From assembly GCA_027531255.1 (NCBI GenBank), contig JAPZRU010000014.1, positions 1 to 64,000 of the forward strand: a DNA stretch of 64,000 bases, read 5' to 3'. The notes under the pieces are model-generated. The model made no database searches and had not been told where the DNA came from. It worked only from the letters and a program-made list of their open reading frames with translations. Position 1 is the first letter of the stretch, and each line of letters begins with the position of its first letter. This document shows positions 25,998 through 34,232 of the stretch, piece after piece. This DNA comes from Steroidobacteraceae bacterium (GTDB lineage: Bacteria; Pseudomonadota; Gammaproteobacteria; Steroidobacterales; Steroidobacteraceae). Position numbers and translations under genes: made by a program.

Positions 25998-26849
25998 CTA
26001 GCGGTTCGCCCGGCGGTTCAGGAACACCAGCTGCTCGAACAGGTGCACGTCCTGCTCGTTCTTCAGCAGTGCGCCGTACAGCGGCGGGATTGCGCTCTTG
26101 CCGTCGGCGGCACGCAGCGCCTCCGGGGGCACGTCCTCGGCGAGCAGCAGCTTCAGCCAGTCGAGGAGTTCGCTGGTCGAGGGCTTCTTCTTGAGGCCCG
26201 GCATCTCGCGGATCTTGTAGAACGACTCCAGCGCCTCCTTCAGCAGTTCCTGCTTCAGGCGCGGGAAGTGCACCTCGACGATGCGGCGCATCGTCTCCTC
26301 GTCCGGGAAGCGGATGTAGTGGAAGAAGCAGCGGCGCAGGAACGCGTCCGGCAGCTCCTTCTCGTTGTTGCTGGTGATCACGATGATCGGCCGGTGCCGG
26401 GCCTGCACGAGCTCGCGCGTCTCGTAGACGTAGAACTCCATCCGGTCGAGCTCGCGCAGCAGGTCGTTCGGGAACTCGATGTCCGCCTTGTCGATCTCGT
26501 CGATGAGGAGGACCGGCTGCACCTCGGACTCGAAGGCCTCCCAGAGCCGGCCCTTCACGATGTAGTTGCGGATGTCGTGGACGCGCGCGTCGCCGAGCTG
26601 GGAGTCCCGCAGCCGCGAGACGGCGTCGTACTCGTAGAGCCCCTGCTGAGCCTTGGTGGTGGACTTGACGTGCCACTCGTACAGCGGGCGCTCGAGCGAG
26701 CGAGCGATCTCCTGCGCGAGCTGGGTCTTGCCGGTGCCGGGCTCGCCCTTGATCAGCAGCGGGCGGGCGAGCGTGACCGCCGCGTTGACGGCGGTCTTCA
26801 GGTCGTCGGTGGCGACGTACCGGTCGGTGCCGGTGAAGCGGGTGGTCAT
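25998..26849 (-). CDS. MoxR-family AAA+ ATPase
   Basis: 283 aa. It is a hexameric AAA+ ATPase expected to remodel or activate a target with the downstream vWA protein. Walker A is GEPGTGKT (35-42), Walker B is VLLIDEIDKAD, sensor 1 is VITSNNEKELPDAFLRRC with the Arg-finger region following. Length is typical. It is the first gene of a two-gene unit and lies 115 bases downstream of the TBDT on the same strand. NorQ/CbbQ-type sequence is an alternative, but no norD/cbbO is present. Confidence 0.88.
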   Translation of the reverse strand: MTTRFTGTDRYVATDDLKTAVNAAVTLARPLLIKGEPGTGKTQLAQEIARSLERPLYEWHVKSTTKAQQGLYEYDAVSRLRDSQLGDARVHDIRNYIVKGRLWEAFESEVQPVLLIDEIDKADIEFPNDLLRELDRMEFYVYETRELVQARHRPIIVITSNNEKELPDAFLRRCFFHYIRFPDEETMRRIVEVHFPRLKQELLKEALESFYKIREMPGLKKKPSTSELLDWLKLLLAEDVPPEALRAADGKSAIPPLYGALLKNEQDVHLFEQLVFLNRRANR

Positions 26850-26964
26850 GTCCGGGCCCTGGCGAGAGGAGGCCCGGCCATTCTACGTCAGGTTCGCGCC
26901 CCGGCCGGCGGTCGAGGGGGATGCACCGCGACCGGCCGGCACGCTGGCCCGAACGGAGGGCGCG

Positions 26965-29781
26965 TCAGAACTTGTAGCTGACGTCGACCGCGAACGAGGT
27001 GCCGATCGTCTGCTCGATGCGGGTGACGTCGCCCTGGCGGATCTCGAGCTTCTCGTCGAGGATATTCTGCGCGCGGAAGCGCACGGTCATCGGCTCGATC
27101 GGAAACCAGCTCCACGTCAGGTCGACCGAGTTGAACGGCTGCTCGAACGCGTCCGGCTGCCCGCTGCGACCCGCGAAGAACAGACGCTCGCCGAAGAAGG
27201 CGTAGCCGAGCGTCGCCGTGTGCTTGCCGTTCGGCGCGTCGAAGCCGAGCTGCAGGTTGGCGACGTACGGCGAGTGCTGCGTCAGGCGGCGCTCGTTGCT
27301 CGTCAGGTCGGTGCCGGCGGCCTGCCCGACCGTGAGCGTCGAATCGCTGAGCGTCAGGTTGCCCTGGACGAAGAACGGCTCGGTCCAGCCGCCGTCGGTC
27401 AGGAAGCCGAGGCTCTTCAGCGTCTCGAACTCGATGCCGTAGACCTCGCCGGACTCGGCGTTGATGAAGCCGAGCTGCGTGTTGTCCTCGGTGCCCGCCG
27501 CTTCGATCGTCTCGATCGGATCCTGGATGTCCTTGTAGAACAGCGACACGGTGAAGTTGTCACCGCTGTCGAAGAACCACTCGCCGCGGATGTCGAAGTT
27601 CTGCAGCTCCGAGGTGCGCAGACGCGGATTGCCGGTGATGCGCGACTCCGTCAGCGGGTCGATGAACGTCGCGTCCGCGACCTCGCGAAGGTCCGGCCGC
27701 GCGATCGTCTGGCTCCAGCCGAAGCGCAGCTGGAAGTTCTCGGCCCAGAAGCCCGGCCGGATGTAGGTGACCGACAACGCCGGGTAGTAGTCGTCGTCGG
27801 AGGTGGCGAGCGTCTGGAGCTGGTTCAGCGGCACGCGGATCTTGCCGACCGTCGCGTCGAACTGCAGCGGATCCACCGGCACCGATACGCGCGAGAAGTC
27901 CTCGTAGCGCACGCCGCCCGACAAGCGCCAGGTCTCGCCGAGCTTGAGATCGCCCTTGATCCAGCCGGCCTCGATGATCTCGCCGGCGATGTACGACTCG
28001 GTGCCGATGCCGCCGGTCTGCAGCTCGAAGCGGTTCGCCGGGTTGCCGACGTTGGCGTCCGAGAACACCGTGCCCGGCGTGCCGTTGAGGAACGCGCCGG
28101 ACGTGGTCGTGCCGAGGCCGAACTGCAGCTGCGTGTAGCCGCGGCCCTTCTCGTAGTAGTCCTGGCCGCCCGAGAGCTCCAGCACGTTGTTGCCGAACTC
28201 GAACGCGCGCGTCAGGCGCCACCCGGAGCTGTTGACCTCGTCGTCGAGCTCGCTGAAGCGGTAGTCCGCCGAGGTCCGCGACGGACGGATGCCGGTGGAC
28301 AGCACCTGACGCGTGGCCGGATCGATGCGGTCGATGCCGGAGATCGTGACCTCGCTCGGCAGGTCCGTGCGCGCCCGGGCGTTCGACCAGTACCAGTTGA
28401 AGCGCAGGCCCTCCAGCAGGTCGAGCGGCAGCCAGCCGTGGCCGCGGCTCTCGAGCAGCGTCCGGGTCGCCGGGCCGAGCGTGTGCGAGCCGGTCAGCTG
28501 CACCACCGTGAGCCCGCGCTCCTCGAAACGCAGCCGGTAGTTGCGCAGCTGGTTGCCCGACTCCGGCCGGAAGTTGACGTTGAACCCGGTCGTGATCGAC
28601 GCGTCGTCCTCGGTGTTCCGGAGGTAGATCAGGTTCAGACCGATCGTCTGCTCTTCGGCGAAGTCGAGGCCGAGCGCGAGCGAGCCCGTGATCACCGCCT
28701 GCTCGGTGGTCCGGCGCGTGGTGTCGACGTCGAGCGTCGGCTCGGCGAACGAGCGCAGCACGCGCTCGCGGTTGCGCCACTGGCGCTCGTACTCGCCGAG
28801 CGCCAGGAAGCCGAAACGGAAGCTGTCGTCCTGCCCGAAGTACCAGCTGTTGCCGACCGTGAGTTCGCCGCCGACGTCGGGGGACAGCGACTTGTCCGTC
28901 ACGTCGAGGTTGCGCTTCAGGCTCAGCGCGAGATTGCGGTTCGCGATCTCCGCGTCGAGCTGCGACACGTTCCCGCCCGCCCGGATCAGTTCGTTCAGGA
29001 TGCCGTTGATGCCGATGTTGCCGCGATAGGCCTGGATGCCGCTCGCCAGCGCGCCGGGCAGCGCGCGCGTGCCGTCGTCCTCGCCCCACTTGTCGTTGCC
29101 GCCGCCGGCGTAGGTGAGGCCGTCGTCGGCGCTCTCGGTGTTCCAGCCGCTCGCGATCTGCAGGCCGAGCGTGAACTCCTCGGGGATCGTGCGGGTGCGG
29201 ATGTCGACGTTGCCGCCGCCGAAGGCCGCCGGCTGGTCCGGCGAGTAGCCCTTCTGGATCGACAGCGACTGCACGATCTCCGCCGGGAACAGGTCCAGCG
29301 GGATCACGTTGCGCGTCAGGTCCGGCGACGGCACGAACGCGCCGTTCAGCGTCGTGCTCGAGTAGCGCTCGCCGAGGCCGCGGATGTAGATGAACTGGTC
29401 GCCGACCAGCGTGACGCCGGGCAGGCGCCGCAGCGCCGTCGACACCGTGCTGTCGCCGACGCGGCCGATCTGCTCGGCGCTGACGAGGTCGGCGACCACG
29501 TCCTGGTCGATGCGCTCCTGCAGCACCGCCTCGGCGGCCGAGCGCTGGCGCGCGGTGACCACGACTTCGCCGAGCGTGTCCTCGCCGGCCGTGCCCTCGG
29601 TGGCGGTCGCGGTCTGATCGGCCGACTCGTCGGCCGCGGCAGCGGTCCGCTCCGGGACCGGCGCTTCCGCGGACACGCGCGCGCCGACCGGCGGCTCCTG
29701 CGCGAACGCGGGGCCGGCGCCCACCGCGCCAAGGCCCAGCAGCGCGATGCGGATCGCCCCGCGCAGATCGATCGTGTTCAT
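26965..29781 (-). CDS. TonB-dependent outer-membrane receptor
   Basis: 938 aa. It is a 22-strand outer-membrane beta-barrel importer driven by TonB. A signal peptide ends near AFA-QE (residue 27), then a disordered acidic stretch, a TonB-box-like EVVVTA, the plug (about 85-220, VVADLVSAEQIGRVGDSTVSTAL onward and the IRGLGERYSSTTLNG block), and the barrel to a C-terminal Phe (DVSYKF). The plug resembles large receptors outside the classical siderophore type. It follows the beta-helix lipoprotein with a 99-base gap containing a perfect 12-bp hairpin; GAGGGG sits 7 bases before the ATG. Phosphate control is inferred from the Pho box upstream of the pair. Substrate unknown. Confidence 0.92.
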   Translation of the reverse strand: MNTIDLRGAIRIALLGLGAVGAGPAFAQEPPVGARVSAEAPVPERTAAAADESADQTATATEGTAGEDTLGEVVVTARQRSAAEAVLQERIDQDVVADLVSAEQIGRVGDSTVSTALRRLPGVTLVGDQFIYIRGLGERYSSTTLNGAFVPSPDLTRNVIPLDLFPAEIVQSLSIQKGYSPDQPAAFGGGNVDIRTRTIPEEFTLGLQIASGWNTESADDGLTYAGGGNDKWGEDDGTRALPGALASGIQAYRGNIGINGILNELIRAGGNVSQLDAEIANRNLALSLKRNLDVTDKSLSPDVGGELTVGNSWYFGQDDSFRFGFLALGEYERQWRNRERVLRSFAEPTLDVDTTRRTTEQAVITGSLALGLDFAEEQTIGLNLIYLRNTEDDASITTGFNVNFRPESGNQLRNYRLRFEERGLTVVQLTGSHTLGPATRTLLESRGHGWLPLDLLEGLRFNWYWSNARARTDLPSEVTISGIDRIDPATRQVLSTGIRPSRTSADYRFSELDDEVNSSGWRLTRAFEFGNNVLELSGGQDYYEKGRGYTQLQFGLGTTTSGAFLNGTPGTVFSDANVGNPANRFELQTGGIGTESYIAGEIIEAGWIKGDLKLGETWRLSGGVRYEDFSRVSVPVDPLQFDATVGKIRVPLNQLQTLATSDDDYYPALSVTYIRPGFWAENFQLRFGWSQTIARPDLREVADATFIDPLTESRITGNPRLRTSELQNFDIRGEWFFDSGDNFTVSLFYKDIQDPIETIEAAGTEDNTQLGFINAESGEVYGIEFETLKSLGFLTDGGWTEPFFVQGNLTLSDSTLTVGQAAGTDLTSNERRLTQHSPYVANLQLGFDAPNGKHTATLGYAFFGERLFFAGRSGQPDAFEQPFNSVDLTWSWFPIEPMTVRFRAQNILDEKLEIRQGDVTRIEQTIGTSFAVDVSYKF

Positions 29782-29799
29782 CGACGTTCCCCTCTTGCA

Positions 29800-29839
29800 G
29801 GACGGCGCGGGTCCCCGAGATCGCGGGCCCGCGCCGTCC
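29800..29839 (-). promoter_or_regulatory. Intercistronic hairpin between lipoprotein and TBDT genes
   Basis: GGACGGCGCGGG (29800-29811) and CCCGCGCCGTCC (29828-29839) pair perfectly over 12 bp around a 16-base loop. It sits after the lipoprotein stop and ends 18 bases before the TBDT start. No T-run follows, so it more likely protects the upstream message or sets the ratio of the two products than fully terminates. Confidence 0.55.
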
Positions 29840-29880
29840 GGCTCATCCCGACGCTGGCGTGCAGACGGACCGGGTTCCGA

Positions 29881-31512
29881 TCACTGCGCGAACCAGAGCG
29901 GGGCATCCGCGTTCGCCGCGCGCAGGCCGAAGGCCCACGGCGTCGTCCAGTCGAGGGTCTGGGTGACCGCGCCGATCTGCGACGGCAGGCCGGAGCCGGT
30001 GAAGAGCGCGGCGGCGGGGCTGCCCGCGGTGATCTGCGCGATCGGCGTGCGCGTGTAGAAGGTGCGGTTCGCCGGCGTCGTGCTGGTCGCGCCCTCGAGC
30101 AGGTTCAGAGTCGACAGCGCCGGGGTGGTCGTCGGCGACAGCAGCTGGTTGCGGACGTTGAACGTGGCCGTGCCCTGGCCACGCAGCCAGAGGTCCGCCG
30201 CCTGCCCGCCGATGGCCGGGCTGGTCACCAGCGTCTCACCGCAGGCGAACACGGTGTTGGTCACGCGGGTGGTGCCGGCATTCGCGCCGCTCACCGTCTG
30301 GTCCGACTCGAGGATCAGGCAGGGATTGTTCGGCGTACCCGCGTTGACCGTGTCGCCGTACGGGGTGAAGAAGATGCTGTTGTTCAGCTCGATCTGGCCG
30401 CCGAGGCGGACGATCGCGCCGCGCGAGAGGCCATGCGTGCCGAGCGGCTGCGCCGACATGATGCAGGTCATGTTGTTGACGACCGGGCGCGTGACCGGCG
30501 TCGTCGGGGTCGCCGCGCTGAAGCGGCCGCTGCCGACGTTGTCCAGCTCGATGCAGTGGTTGCCTTCCGTGCGCCACTGGATCACGAGCGCGTTCGTGAT
30601 CGTGCCGTTGTAGCCGTCGGTGAAGTCCAGCGCGTCGTCGCGGACGTACAGCGCGATCAGGTTGCGCGCGTTCACCGAGCCGCCGAAGAACTCGAAGCCG
30701 TCGTCGAACGTGCTGTAGACCTGCACGTTCTCGAGCGTGGTGCCCGAACCGACCGCATTGAACGTGATGCCGTTCAGTTCGTCGTTCGGGGCGACCTCGA
30801 AGCCGGTGTGCTTCACGATCACGAACCGCAGCGTGCCCGAGTTGTCCGCGGCGTCGTTGCCGCCGTAGTTCGACGGCTGGCCCTCGGAGAGCACGTGGCA
30901 CGCGTTCGACGTGCGCTGCGCATCGGTGCAGTTGCTCGTGATGCCGTTGCCGTTGATCACGATGCCGCCCCACTGCGACACGTCGTTCGCGCCGGCCGTG
31001 TTGCTGACGGCGTCCGCGAAGCTCGTGAAGACGATGGGCTGCGAGGCGGTGCCGTTGGCGTTCAGGCGCGAGCCGCGGTTGACCAGCACGTAGTCCGCGG
31101 AATCCGCGAACGCCAGCGTGTTGCCGGGTTCGATCGTCAGCGTCGGGCCGGTGCCGCTGGCGGGCGCCGCACCGGTGTTCACGTTGCGGCCGACGACCAC
31201 GCTGTCCTGGAAGATGTGAACGCCGCCGCTCGACAGCGTCGGGATCGTGACGTTGACCGCGAGGGGGTTGTTGAGACCGACGAACTGCGACGAGTAGGTG
31301 CAGTTGCGGCCGTCGTAGTTGCCACGCCGCACCTCGCTGCCGCCCGCGACCTGGTACGAGGCGCAGGGATTCACGCTGCCGCCCGTGCCGCCGCCGCCGC
31401 CGGTGCTGACGGAGTTGTCCACCGTCGAGACGTTGAGATCGATGCCGCCGCCGCTGCACGCCGTGAGGGCCGCGAGGATCGCTCCGCTCAGGAGCAGCTG
31501 TTGGGTCTTCAT
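29881..31512 (-). CDS. Secreted beta-helix-like lipoprotein paired with TBDT
   Basis: 543 aa. A lipoprotein signal peptide (lipobox LTAC, Cys19) is followed by a Gly-rich linker. The rest is low-complexity beta-repeat sequence with many Asn/Gly/Thr turns (GGIVINGNG, DNSGTLRFVIVKHTG, LENVQVYSTFDDGFEFFGGSVNARN, ARNLIALYVRDDALDFTDGYNG), typical of a right-handed parallel beta-helix. Conserved Asp pairs in the turns could bind metal or ligand. I do not recognise a named family or enzyme activity. It is the first gene behind a Pho box and is followed by the TBDT, suggesting a surface or periplasmic binding partner. Confidence 0.75.
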   Translation of the reverse strand: MKTQQLLLSGAILAALTACSGGGIDLNVSTVDNSVSTGGGGGTGGSVNPCASYQVAGGSEVRRGNYDGRNCTYSSQFVGLNNPLAVNVTIPTLSSGGVHIFQDSVVVGRNVNTGAAPASGTGPTLTIEPGNTLAFADSADYVLVNRGSRLNANGTASQPIVFTSFADAVSNTAGANDVSQWGGIVINGNGITSNCTDAQRTSNACHVLSEGQPSNYGGNDAADNSGTLRFVIVKHTGFEVAPNDELNGITFNAVGSGTTLENVQVYSTFDDGFEFFGGSVNARNLIALYVRDDALDFTDGYNGTITNALVIQWRTEGNHCIELDNVGSGRFSAATPTTPVTRPVVNNMTCIMSAQPLGTHGLSRGAIVRLGGQIELNNSIFFTPYGDTVNAGTPNNPCLILESDQTVSGANAGTTRVTNTVFACGETLVTSPAIGGQAADLWLRGQGTATFNVRNQLLSPTTTPALSTLNLLEGATSTTPANRTFYTRTPIAQITAGSPAAALFTGSGLPSQIGAVTQTLDWTTPWAFGLRAANADAPLWFAQ

Positions 31513-31847
31513 CCGGGAATCTCCGCCTGCGCTAGGGACTGACGTCGGAGTGACGTCGGGGCGACGCGGGAGCCGCAGGGTCCCCTGCTCCCGGCGTCAC
31601 ATCGCTTCGTAGGCGGCGCAAGTTAGGCGGGACGCATGACGCGGACGTGACACGAATGTGGCAGCGGGATGACAACGGAGCGCCCGAACACGCCTGCGGC
31701 GGCGCCGCACCCGGTCGGCTCGAGCCGAAACCGGCGCAAACGCGCTCCCGCGACGATCGCAGGACCCCGGCGCGTCGCGCGTTGTGTCAGAAACTTTTCA
31801 GAGTGCGTTCGGTGTTCGACGCAAGTAGCTGACGCCGTGAGAGATGC
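31513..31847. other. 335-base regulatory gap upstream of the lipoprotein gene
   Basis: It holds a Pho box (31636-31675), a weak -10 (31625-31620) and the left arm of a 15-bp inverted repeat at the acylase end. No coding sequence is seen. Confidence 0.7.
31620..31675 (-). promoter_or_regulatory. Pho box (four PhoB heptamers) and -10 of lipoprotein-TBDT unit
   Basis: On the minus strand four heptamers sit at an exact 11-bp pitch: TTGTCAT (31675-31669), CTGCCAC (31664-31658), GTGTCAC (31653-31647) and GCGTCAT (31642-31636), each separated by 4 bases. The PhoB consensus is CTGTCAT with N4 spacing. A TAACTT box (31625-31620) lies 10 bases after the last heptamer, where PhoB-dependent promoters keep their -10. 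The predicted leader is about 100 nt. Confidence 0.8.
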
Positions 31848-31861
31848 TCACGGCGTCAGCT
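31827..31861. repeat. Perfect 15-bp inverted repeat at the acylase stop
   Basis: AGCTGACGCCGTGAG (31827-31841), loop AGATG, CTCACGGCGTCAGCT (31847-31861). The right arm contains the acylase stop codon (31850-31848). A terminator role is likely, although no T-run follows on the minus strand. Confidence 0.75.
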
Positions 31862-34232
31862 CGAGGCGATGCACGCCGGCGCCCGGCAGGAACGGCGTCG
31901 CCTCGCCGCGCTCCCAGGCCGCATGCCACGAGCGATGGAACGGCGACAGCGGGTGACCACTCTGCCCGCCCGGCATGTGGAACACGCTCTCGCCTTCGCG
32001 TCCGACGAGGATCGCGAATCGCTCGGACGCGCCGAAGCTGCGGCCCTGCACGCGCGGCATGTCGTTGTCGCCGGGCAGCGCCGTGGCCGGCATGTCGAGC
32101 CAGCGGTCGACGAACGGCAGCGCCGCCGAGAGCGGGTGCGCGATGCGCGTCGTGTTCCACGCGCCCCAGGTGCAGGTATCGAGTTGCGGGCACTGCTCGC
32201 CGAGCGTGTCGAGCGCGCCGTCGAGCGAGGCGAGCAGGAACGCGCGCCAGTCCGCGTGGCCCGGCGGCAGCAGGTGCGCAGGCTGCTCCGCGACGAGCCG
32301 CCAGAGCGGCCCCTCGAACGACGGCGGGATACGAAGGCGCAGCTGCGGCGCGGCGGTGCGCGCGGGCGCGACGAGTGCATAGAACGCGCGGCGCTGCACT
32401 TCGGAGCGGAACGTCCGCACGAGCCGATAGGCCGGATCGTCCACTGCGGCACGCCCGGTCCACGCCGCGAGCAGCCGGCGCGCCTCCGCGCGGGCGGCGT
32501 TTTCGCCGGCCGCACGCTCGTCCAGCAGCGCGACCAGCAGGTCCTTCCAGCGTGCGAGGAACAGCGCGCGGTCGTCGAGCAGCACGCGCAGCGCCTCCGC
32601 GGTGCCCTGCGCGTCGCCCGCGGCGCGCAGGCCGTCGGCGATCTGCCGCGAACGCGCGCCACGGTCGTAGCCGCCGTCGCCGAGAACGGCGAGCGCCTCC
32701 CCGCCCACGACACGGGAATTCGCGGTCCAGATCTGCCCGTCCGCCGGGTCGACGAGCGTCGGGCGCCGCTCGGGCGCGAGCCAGCCGTCGAAGCCGACGT
32801 CCGGCGCAGTCGAGGGCCGCGGCACGGCGCCGTCGCCGCGGCGCGCCGGCAACCGGCCGATCACCGTCCACGCGATGCGGCCGCTCGCGTCGCCGACGAC
32901 GAAGTTCTGGCCCGGGATGCCCGCGCGCGCGGCGATCGCGAGCGCGGCGTCGAGATCCGGCGCGGTCTCGAGTCGCATCAGCTCGAGGTTCACGGCTTCC
33001 GGGCGGTGCGCCGTCCAGGCCAGCGCGAGCGGCCGACCGCGGTGGTCCTCACCGACGATCGGACCCCAGCGCGTGGACCGCACCTCGAGTTCCACGGGCG
33101 CGGCGCCGCTCACCTCGATGGTCTCGCGCACCGTCGCGTATGGCTGCGGGCCGTCCGCCGCAAGGTAGCGACGCGCGTCCGTGGGGTCCGGCTCGACGAT
33201 CACGAAGTCGGCGAAGTCGGCGTAGCTGTTGGTGAACGCCCAGGCGATCCGCCCGGTGCTGCCGGCGACCAGCGCGGGCGCGCCCGGCAGCGTGACGCCC
33301 GTGACGTCGACGACGGTTGCGCCGGCCGCCACCTGCCGCAGCCGGGCGTGATACCAGGTGTTCGGCACGCGCAGCCCGAGGTGCATGTCGTTCACGACCA
33401 TCGCGGTGCCGCTGGCCGTGCGGCGCCCCGCGATCGCCCAGTTGTTGCTGCCGAGCGGCGAGCGCTCGCGCGCGGCGTAAGGGGGCGGCGCGAACTCGAG
33501 GGACCCCAACCGGCGCAGGTCGTACTCGTCGGCGGTCGGCACCCGCGGCGGCGCGCTGGTCGTGCCGTCGAGCGCCGCGTCCCATTCCGGTGCGGGCGCG
33601 TACAGGAACTGCGCGACCGCCGGCGGCAGAGTGTCGGCGAACAGGCCGCGCTGGCGTTCGTGACGCTGGTCGCCGCGCTGCAGGTCGACGAACATCGCGA
33701 AGATCACGAGCAGCGAGTCCTCGGGCGCCCACGGCTCGGGCGTCGCGCGCAGCAGCCAGTACTCCCACGGGTGCGTGCCGAGCGAGGCGAGGCCGGCGTT
33801 CGCACCGCGAGCATAGGCGTCGACCACCGCGCGGTCCTCCGCAGGGGCCTTCGCGAGCGCCTCGCGGGCCACCGCACGGAACCGGTGCACGCGCAGGTCG
33901 CGATCCACATCGAGCGTGGCAGGCCCGAGCAGCGCGGCGAGTTCGCCGGCCGCCGCGCGCCGCAGCAGGTCCATCTGGAACCAGCGGTCCTGCGCGTGCG
34001 CGTAGCCGAGGGCGTACGCGAGGTCCGCGCGCGTCGCCGCGGTCAGCGTGACGGAGCCACGCACGTCGCGCTCGAGGGTGGCGGGCGCGGCGAGCCCCGC
34101 CGCGACCACGCGACCGTCGAGCGGCGGCAGGCTCGTGCGCAGGACGGTGCCGGTGCCGACCACCGCGGCCACCAGCAGGGCGACCACGAGCACTCCGAGC
34201 CCGAGCAGCGTACGCGAGACCCAGCGGCGCAT
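31848..34232 (-). CDS. Penicillin acylase family N-terminal-nucleophile hydrolase
   Basis: 794 aa. The family hydrolyses amide bonds of acyl side chains: penicillins, cephalosporins or acyl-homoserine lactones. A hydrophobic N terminus (LLGLGVLVVALLVAAVVG) acts as signal or anchor. The alpha chain spans about 35-260; self-cleavage should occur at G261/S262 in LGSNNWAIAG, giving the nucleophile Ser262 of the beta chain. FTNSYADFADF and the Asn of GDASGRIAW-type strands also fit. It resembles periplasmic AHL acylases (PvdQ/QuiP) in layout, but the substrate cannot be told from sequence. Single gene, upstream of the Pho-box gap. Confidence 0.88.
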   Translation of the reverse strand: MRRWVSRTLLGLGVLVVALLVAAVVGTGTVLRTSLPPLDGRVVAAGLAAPATLERDVRGSVTLTAATRADLAYALGYAHAQDRWFQMDLLRRAAAGELAALLGPATLDVDRDLRVHRFRAVAREALAKAPAEDRAVVDAYARGANAGLASLGTHPWEYWLLRATPEPWAPEDSLLVIFAMFVDLQRGDQRHERQRGLFADTLPPAVAQFLYAPAPEWDAALDGTTSAPPRVPTADEYDLRRLGSLEFAPPPYAARERSPLGSNNWAIAGRRTASGTAMVVNDMHLGLRVPNTWYHARLRQVAAGATVVDVTGVTLPGAPALVAGSTGRIAWAFTNSYADFADFVIVEPDPTDARRYLAADGPQPYATVRETIEVSGAAPVELEVRSTRWGPIVGEDHRGRPLALAWTAHRPEAVNLELMRLETAPDLDAALAIAARAGIPGQNFVVGDASGRIAWTVIGRLPARRGDGAVPRPSTAPDVGFDGWLAPERRPTLVDPADGQIWTANSRVVGGEALAVLGDGGYDRGARSRQIADGLRAAGDAQGTAEALRVLLDDRALFLARWKDLLVALLDERAAGENAARAEARRLLAAWTGRAAVDDPAYRLVRTFRSEVQRRAFYALVAPARTAAPQLRLRIPPSFEGPLWRLVAEQPAHLLPPGHADWRAFLLASLDGALDTLGEQCPQLDTCTWGAWNTTRIAHPLSAALPFVDRWLDMPATALPGDNDMPRVQGRSFGASERFAILVGREGESVFHMPGGQSGHPLSPFHRSWHAAWERGEATPFLPGAGVHRLELTP

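Follow-up and report, generated by a model that had tools for sequence, protein, structure and literature searches.

In Caulobacter, the lipoprotein ElpS (CC0170) is made on phosphate starvation, anchored at the cell surface and then released in a manner dependent on type II secretion, and its gene is followed by those of the receptor CC0171 and of gspC (PMC2996285). CC0171 was described as constitutive and independently regulated in C. crescentus (data not shown there; PMC2996285), so that co-induction of the receptor with the lipoprotein is not assured. Overproduction of ElpS raised the alkaline phosphatase activity of the supernatant and the purified protein had none; phosphatase activity did not change when elpS was lost (PMC2996285), and this last result leaves the family's function weakly established. 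The PhoB regulon of C. crescentus includes type II secretion and various TonB-dependent receptors (PMC11208175).

In Flavobacterium johnsoniae, the lipoproteins FI and FII and their adjacent receptors were strongly up-regulated on phosphate depletion, with tabulated transcript changes of 14.47 and 12.50 for one pair and of 9.91 and 8.02 for the other; one lipoprotein-receptor pair of this species adjoins phoBR, and the authors related the lipoproteins both to ElpS and to the polygalacturonase fold (PMC8115612). PhoB promoters contain at least two direct CTGTCAT repeats of 7+4 bp, which replace the -35 element near the -10 (PMC2648988, PMC4971064).

The window analysed here, a 64-kb stretch of DNA from a bacterium of the Steroidobacteraceae, also has a lipoprotein gene followed directly by a receptor gene, as in the ElpS-CC0171 pair. 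The features of this locus are as follows:

31675-31636, minus strand: Pho box of four 7-bp PhoB heptamers at 11-bp pitch, the best three-unit match genome-wide
31675-31669, minus strand: heptamer 1, TTGTCAT
31664-31658, minus strand: heptamer 2, CTGCCAC
31653-31647, minus strand: heptamer 3, GTGTCAC
31642-31636, minus strand: heptamer 4, GCGTCAT
31635-31626, minus strand: 10-nt spacer between the last heptamer and the hexamer
31625-31620, minus strand: -10-like hexamer TAACTT, 10 bp past the last heptamer, an offset kept in relatives
31512-29881, minus strand: gene for a 543-residue outer-membrane lipoprotein of an ElpS-like family (lipobox, alignment, tree and model)
29839-29800, minus strand: GC-rich intercistronic hairpin, strong and with no T-tract, in the 99-bp gap
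29781-26965, minus strand: second gene of the unit, for a 938-residue TonB-dependent receptor with Plug and β-barrel domains (Pfam PF07715/PF00593)

Pho-type repeats were also found upstream in most of the ElpS-type Caulobacteraceae loci sampled. The window protein differs from ElpS in its clade, which is gammaproteobacterial, separate and well supported. No link to type II secretion genes was seen either, since no match to gspD was detected in the window and the gspD of this genome lies on contig C25. The lipoprotein was therefore classified as ElpS-like and not as ElpS. FI, FII and FIII of Flavobacterium with their receptors (PUSIII, PUSIV) are likewise lipoprotein-receptor pairs with a β-helix-type model (PMC8115612), but they belong to Bacteroidota, which have other secretion machinery, and their kinship to the window pair comes from PMC8115612 and from weak tblastn matches in plasmid records of Bacteroidota. 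In the plasmid records listed, the lipoproteins were annotated as hypothetical proteins or were not annotated. The earlier note on this DNA had stated that the uptake module carries no known phosphate-acquisition name. Its reading of the regulation is right, but the type of system is already known from Caulobacter and Flavobacterium, homologous pairs having been published as ElpS/CC0171 (PMC2996285) and as FI/FII with their receptors (PMC8115612).

Sequence and rank of the Pho box

Read on the minus strand with its linkers, the Pho box is TTGTCAT-cccg-CTGCCAC-attc-GTGTCAC-gtcc-GCGTCAT (31675-31636), an arrangement of tandem CTGTCAT-like 7-bp repeats and 4-bp linkers typical of a PhoB-dependent promoter. 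The four minus-strand heptamers at an exact 11-bp pitch had been reported in the earlier note with coordinates that were correct to the base, and the -10 claimed at a distance of 10 bases was found as well, although the hexamer itself is weak, with 3 of 6 matches to TATAAT. TAACTT is nevertheless credible as a -10 because its position is conserved in relatives, and the box occupies the place of a -35 element with this -10 close downstream. Scans of positions 26700-32000 detected no σ70 promoter and no terminator; the lack of a σ70 match at the Pho box is expected if PhoB stands in for the -35 element. In comparison with the pstS-type Pho box, the one in the window has four repeats instead of the minimal two, and GC-rich linkers.

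The box is located in the 335 bp that separate the end of an acylase gene (31848-34232, same strand) from the lipoprotein start at 31512. As proposed before, it is directly upstream of the lipoprotein-receptor unit, whose genes share one strand, and because the acylase gene is on this strand too, no divergent gene competes for the Pho box. The acylase (minus strand) belongs to the penicillin-amidase family and gave a weak PvdQ match, below the cut-off. We also observed weak repeats (GCGTCGC, ACGTCAC and ACGTCAG) at 11-bp pitch in the predicted 5' leader (31539-31567, minus strand), which may be due to chance.

When both strands were scanned with weights taken from the E. coli consensus CTGTCAT, the Pho box was the top two-, three- and four-unit site of the window; its three-unit score was 18.4, compared with 13.6 for the best site elsewhere in the window, and none of 200 shuffled versions of the upstream region (0/200) reached its score. 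At the level of the 4.2-Mb genome, the two-unit pattern TGTCAY-N5-TGTCAY, with one mismatch at most, occurred at 8 places and the reversed pattern, used as control, at 3. The 8 places were three registers of the Pho box, one pstS promoter and four positions inside coding frames. When as many as three mismatches were allowed, the three-unit pattern occurred at 3 places and its reversed control at 0; these were overlapping registers of the Pho box (1 and 2 mismatches) and one place in a coding frame (3 mismatches), so that by this measure the lipoprotein Pho box exceeds that of pstS. Rather than ranking no better than random intergenic DNA, the site was the genome's best three-unit match.

PhoB is encoded in the same genome (TIGR02154, 349 bits against a cut-off of 296.2) by a gene beside pst genes, and several OmpR-type regulators scoring below the PhoB cut-off are encoded as well. 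The pstS promoter consists of TTGTCATCTTTCTGTAAT, then GATCCGCGGC, then TTAACT, with the same geometry as at the lipoprotein box. A second pstS of the genome carries TTGTCACATCCGCGTAAC, and weaker heptamer repeats are present upstream of phoB. Two neighbouring pstS-like genes, each one with its own Pho box, were seen at about 10758-15258 of contig C25 (G000; L023), where they are preceded by phoB.

Conservation of the Pho box and of the neighbouring genes

Lipoprotein homologues were drawn from relatives, from named genomes and from the family of Phenylobacterium, and the upstream regions of 103 distinct homologues were scored using three heptamers and a threshold of at least 15. With a pitch of 11, 58 of the 103 regions reached the threshold, compared with 0, 4, 0 and 3 at pitches of 9, 10, 12 and 13, respectively; such counts are not independent because the sequences are related, a relatedness that the pitch and offset controls share. 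The other 45 homologues, members from Microbulbifer included, were below the threshold. The dinucleotide TA was found at an offset of 10 past the last heptamer in 32 of the 58 boxed homologues (8 or fewer at any other offset), and TAnnnT was placed exactly there in 26 (4 or fewer at any other offset). Box, pitch and -10 spacing were all conserved upstream of homologues in many genera. The commonest heptamer number among the boxed homologues was four (31/58). The earlier note had considered four heptamers strong and two normal; four is the usual number in this family, and the repeat number was no longer taken to make the site exceptional.

Among control genes of the same loci (n = 557), 5.7% scored at least 15 at pitch 11. 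Ten of the high-scoring controls were identified, nine being PstS-family, DUF3450, gspC, phoB or porin genes (phoB confirmed by the cut-off) and one an amino acid permease gene; the nine are plausibly members of the Pho regulon, and the 5.7% was not kept as a mere background rate since nine of the ten identified high scorers were of Pho-regulon type.

The neighbourhood of the lipoprotein gene contained phoB, over the cut-off, in L040, L046, L085 and L111. PstS-family genes were present in 16 relative loci, some of them directly upstream of the lipoprotein gene, DUF3450 homologues in 22, gspC homologues in 13 and gspD in 7. Several Alteromonadales loci had a Pho box in front of their DUF3450 gene, and some of the gspC genes had one of their own. 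The order lipoprotein-receptor-gspC-gspD was seen in Caulobacteraceae, Maricaulis and Sphingomonas and equals that of the published elpS locus. In one relative (L105:11285-14032), a DUF3450 gene and then two frames that looked ExbB-like by eye adjoin the lipoprotein-receptor pair. In other loci, mainly of Woeseiaceae and their relatives (L058, L059, L064, L065 and L037), a PhoB-like regulator below the cut-off is encoded directly upstream of the lipoprotein.

The lipoprotein, its receptor and the gap between their genes

The window protein has a lipoprotein signal with the lipobox LTAC, whose cysteine (Cys19) is invariant in the alignment of homologues. No Pfam or NCBIfam family, SusD included, was found for it, and a PDB sequence search with its profile gave no match at E up to 1. 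An AlphaFold2 model (pTM 0.83, mean pLDDT 74) was mostly β-strand and aligned in VIA-align with β-helix proteins at Z 17-22, many at similar Z, among them pectate lyases, alginate epimerases/lyases and polygalacturonases (Z 17-21); Foldseek gave no match for the model at E <= 0.001. The predicted fold is a right-handed parallel β-helix, an assignment of fold class only. In joining a TonB-dependent receptor to a surface lipoprotein the window pair resembles SusCD, but its lipoprotein is β-rich with a β-helix-like model and is not of the SusD family, so that the pair was not classified as a SusCD importer.

Homology to the Caulobacteraceae ElpS-type lipoproteins, whose loci were recognised by gene order, was found. 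The profile matched these proteins with E down to 1e-159, but it was built from the window protein together with 13 relatives, and kinship of the window protein itself therefore rests on the alignment and on pairwise matches to the same clade. When aligned, the window protein was approximately 30% identical to ElpS-type relatives, and the tree separated its gammaproteobacterial clade from the Caulobacter-type clade with a support of 100/100. Homologues of about 870-970 and of 1350-1420 residues were seen in Alteromonadales, Maricaulales and others (L085, L104, L111 and L117, for example), and these are perhaps tandem copies of the domain.

In 100 of 107 loci from Alpha- and Gammaproteobacteria, the lipoprotein gene was followed directly, on its own strand, by a receptor homologue, as in the window, where 99 bp lie between the two genes. 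Among the seven exceptions, the receptor gene was upstream in two and four loci ended at or soon after the lipoprotein gene. A PDB sequence search with the receptor gave no match at E up to 0.001. In none of 96 loci did the receptor gene have a Pho box of its own immediately ahead of it, which suggests that a single promoter serves the two genes, and the gap in the window contained no promoter-like or terminator-like match. Gaps between the two genes were structured (z < -2) in 38 of 78 relatives compared with 30 of 210 control gaps, and such gaps may set unequal levels of lipoprotein and receptor. The window's own gap was unexceptional (z -1.2 to -1.8); its hairpin could lower the share of transcription that continues into the receptor gene.

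Proposed function and alternatives

The genome rank of the site, its pstS-like geometry, the PhoB gene and the conservation of the box in homologues together make control of the lipoprotein-receptor unit by PhoB, as the earlier note had proposed, a well supported prediction from sequence. We infer that PhoB binds the box and induces the unit in the Steroidobacteraceae host, and we presume the co-transcription of the two genes, the surface location and joint action of their products, the nature of the substrate and the following mechanism. Under phosphate starvation, PhoR would phosphorylate PhoB, which would fill the tandem heptamers and recruit RNA polymerase to the lipoprotein gene, and transcription would run on through the intercistronic gap into the TonB-dependent receptor gene. 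On the cell surface, the lipid-anchored β-helix lipoprotein would bind or process a phosphorus-containing substrate, and the receptor would import the substrate or its products. That the unit encodes a PhoB-induced surface β-helix lipoprotein and TonB receptor capturing and importing a phosphorus source seems probable to us (about 0.78). The pair may also be, although we put this somewhat below even odds, a proteobacterial two-part importer of phosphorus across the outer membrane, analogous to SusCD, with a β-helix capture lipoprotein and, in some lineages, with PhoB-controlled DUF3450-ExbB energising genes of its own.

Two alternatives concern the box itself. The weakness of TAACTT is all that would favour chance repeats in GC-rich intergenic DNA, an explanation that the genome-wide uniqueness of the site, the result of the 200 shuffles and the pitch and spacing conserved in relatives make extremely improbable. 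Binding of the repeats by another regulator of the OmpR family instead of PhoB would be compatible with the several OmpR-type regulators of this genome below the PhoB cut-off and with the PhoB-like regulator, also below it, next to the lipoprotein gene in some Woeseiaceae; it appears very unlikely, however, given that heptamers and -10 spacing match those of the genome's pstS promoter and that relatives of the unit adjoin phoB and PstS-family genes.

Other alternatives accept the box and differ in what the lipoprotein does. Its main role could be the one proposed for ElpS, in which the released protein activates an extracellular phosphatase or serves as its scaffold; the receptor would then be a mere neighbour or have other cargo. 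The phosphatase activity gained in the supernatant on ElpS overproduction, with purified ElpS inactive, and the independent regulation reported for CC0171 (PMC2996285) agree with this, but the receptor follows on the same strand in 100 of the 107 loci, paired induction was measured in Flavobacterium (PMC8115612), and the Pho-boxed DUF3450-ExbB genes of several Alteromonadales suggest that TonB-driven import is part of the job; we give a role as phosphatase activator roughly one chance in four. Slightly less likely still, the lipoprotein would bind or cleave polysaccharide, freeing the phosphorus of phosphorylated glycans or cell walls, with the receptor importing the fragments. The same idea has been raised for FI and FII (PMC8115612), and pectate lyases, alginate epimerases/lyases and polygalacturonases are among the matches of the model (Z 17-21). 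However, a common β-helix does not reveal function, Foldseek gave no match at E <= 0.001, and no carbohydrate-active gene was noticed near the unit. The reading of a PhoB-induced lipoprotein and receptor that capture and import a phosphorus source is the one that we prefer.

A family with no Pfam or NCBIfam entry is now linked, in Alpha- and Gammaproteobacteria, to PhoB promoters, to a TonB-dependent receptor of its own and, at some loci, to phoB, PstS-family and ExbB genes. Lipoprotein, receptor and multi-repeat Pho box together provide a signature for annotation, and the scattered observations made at low phosphate in Caulobacter and Flavobacterium become one question, that is, which phosphorus compound is captured and imported. 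If the pair is indeed a two-part importer, PhoB would control one more path through the outer membrane in addition to the porins.
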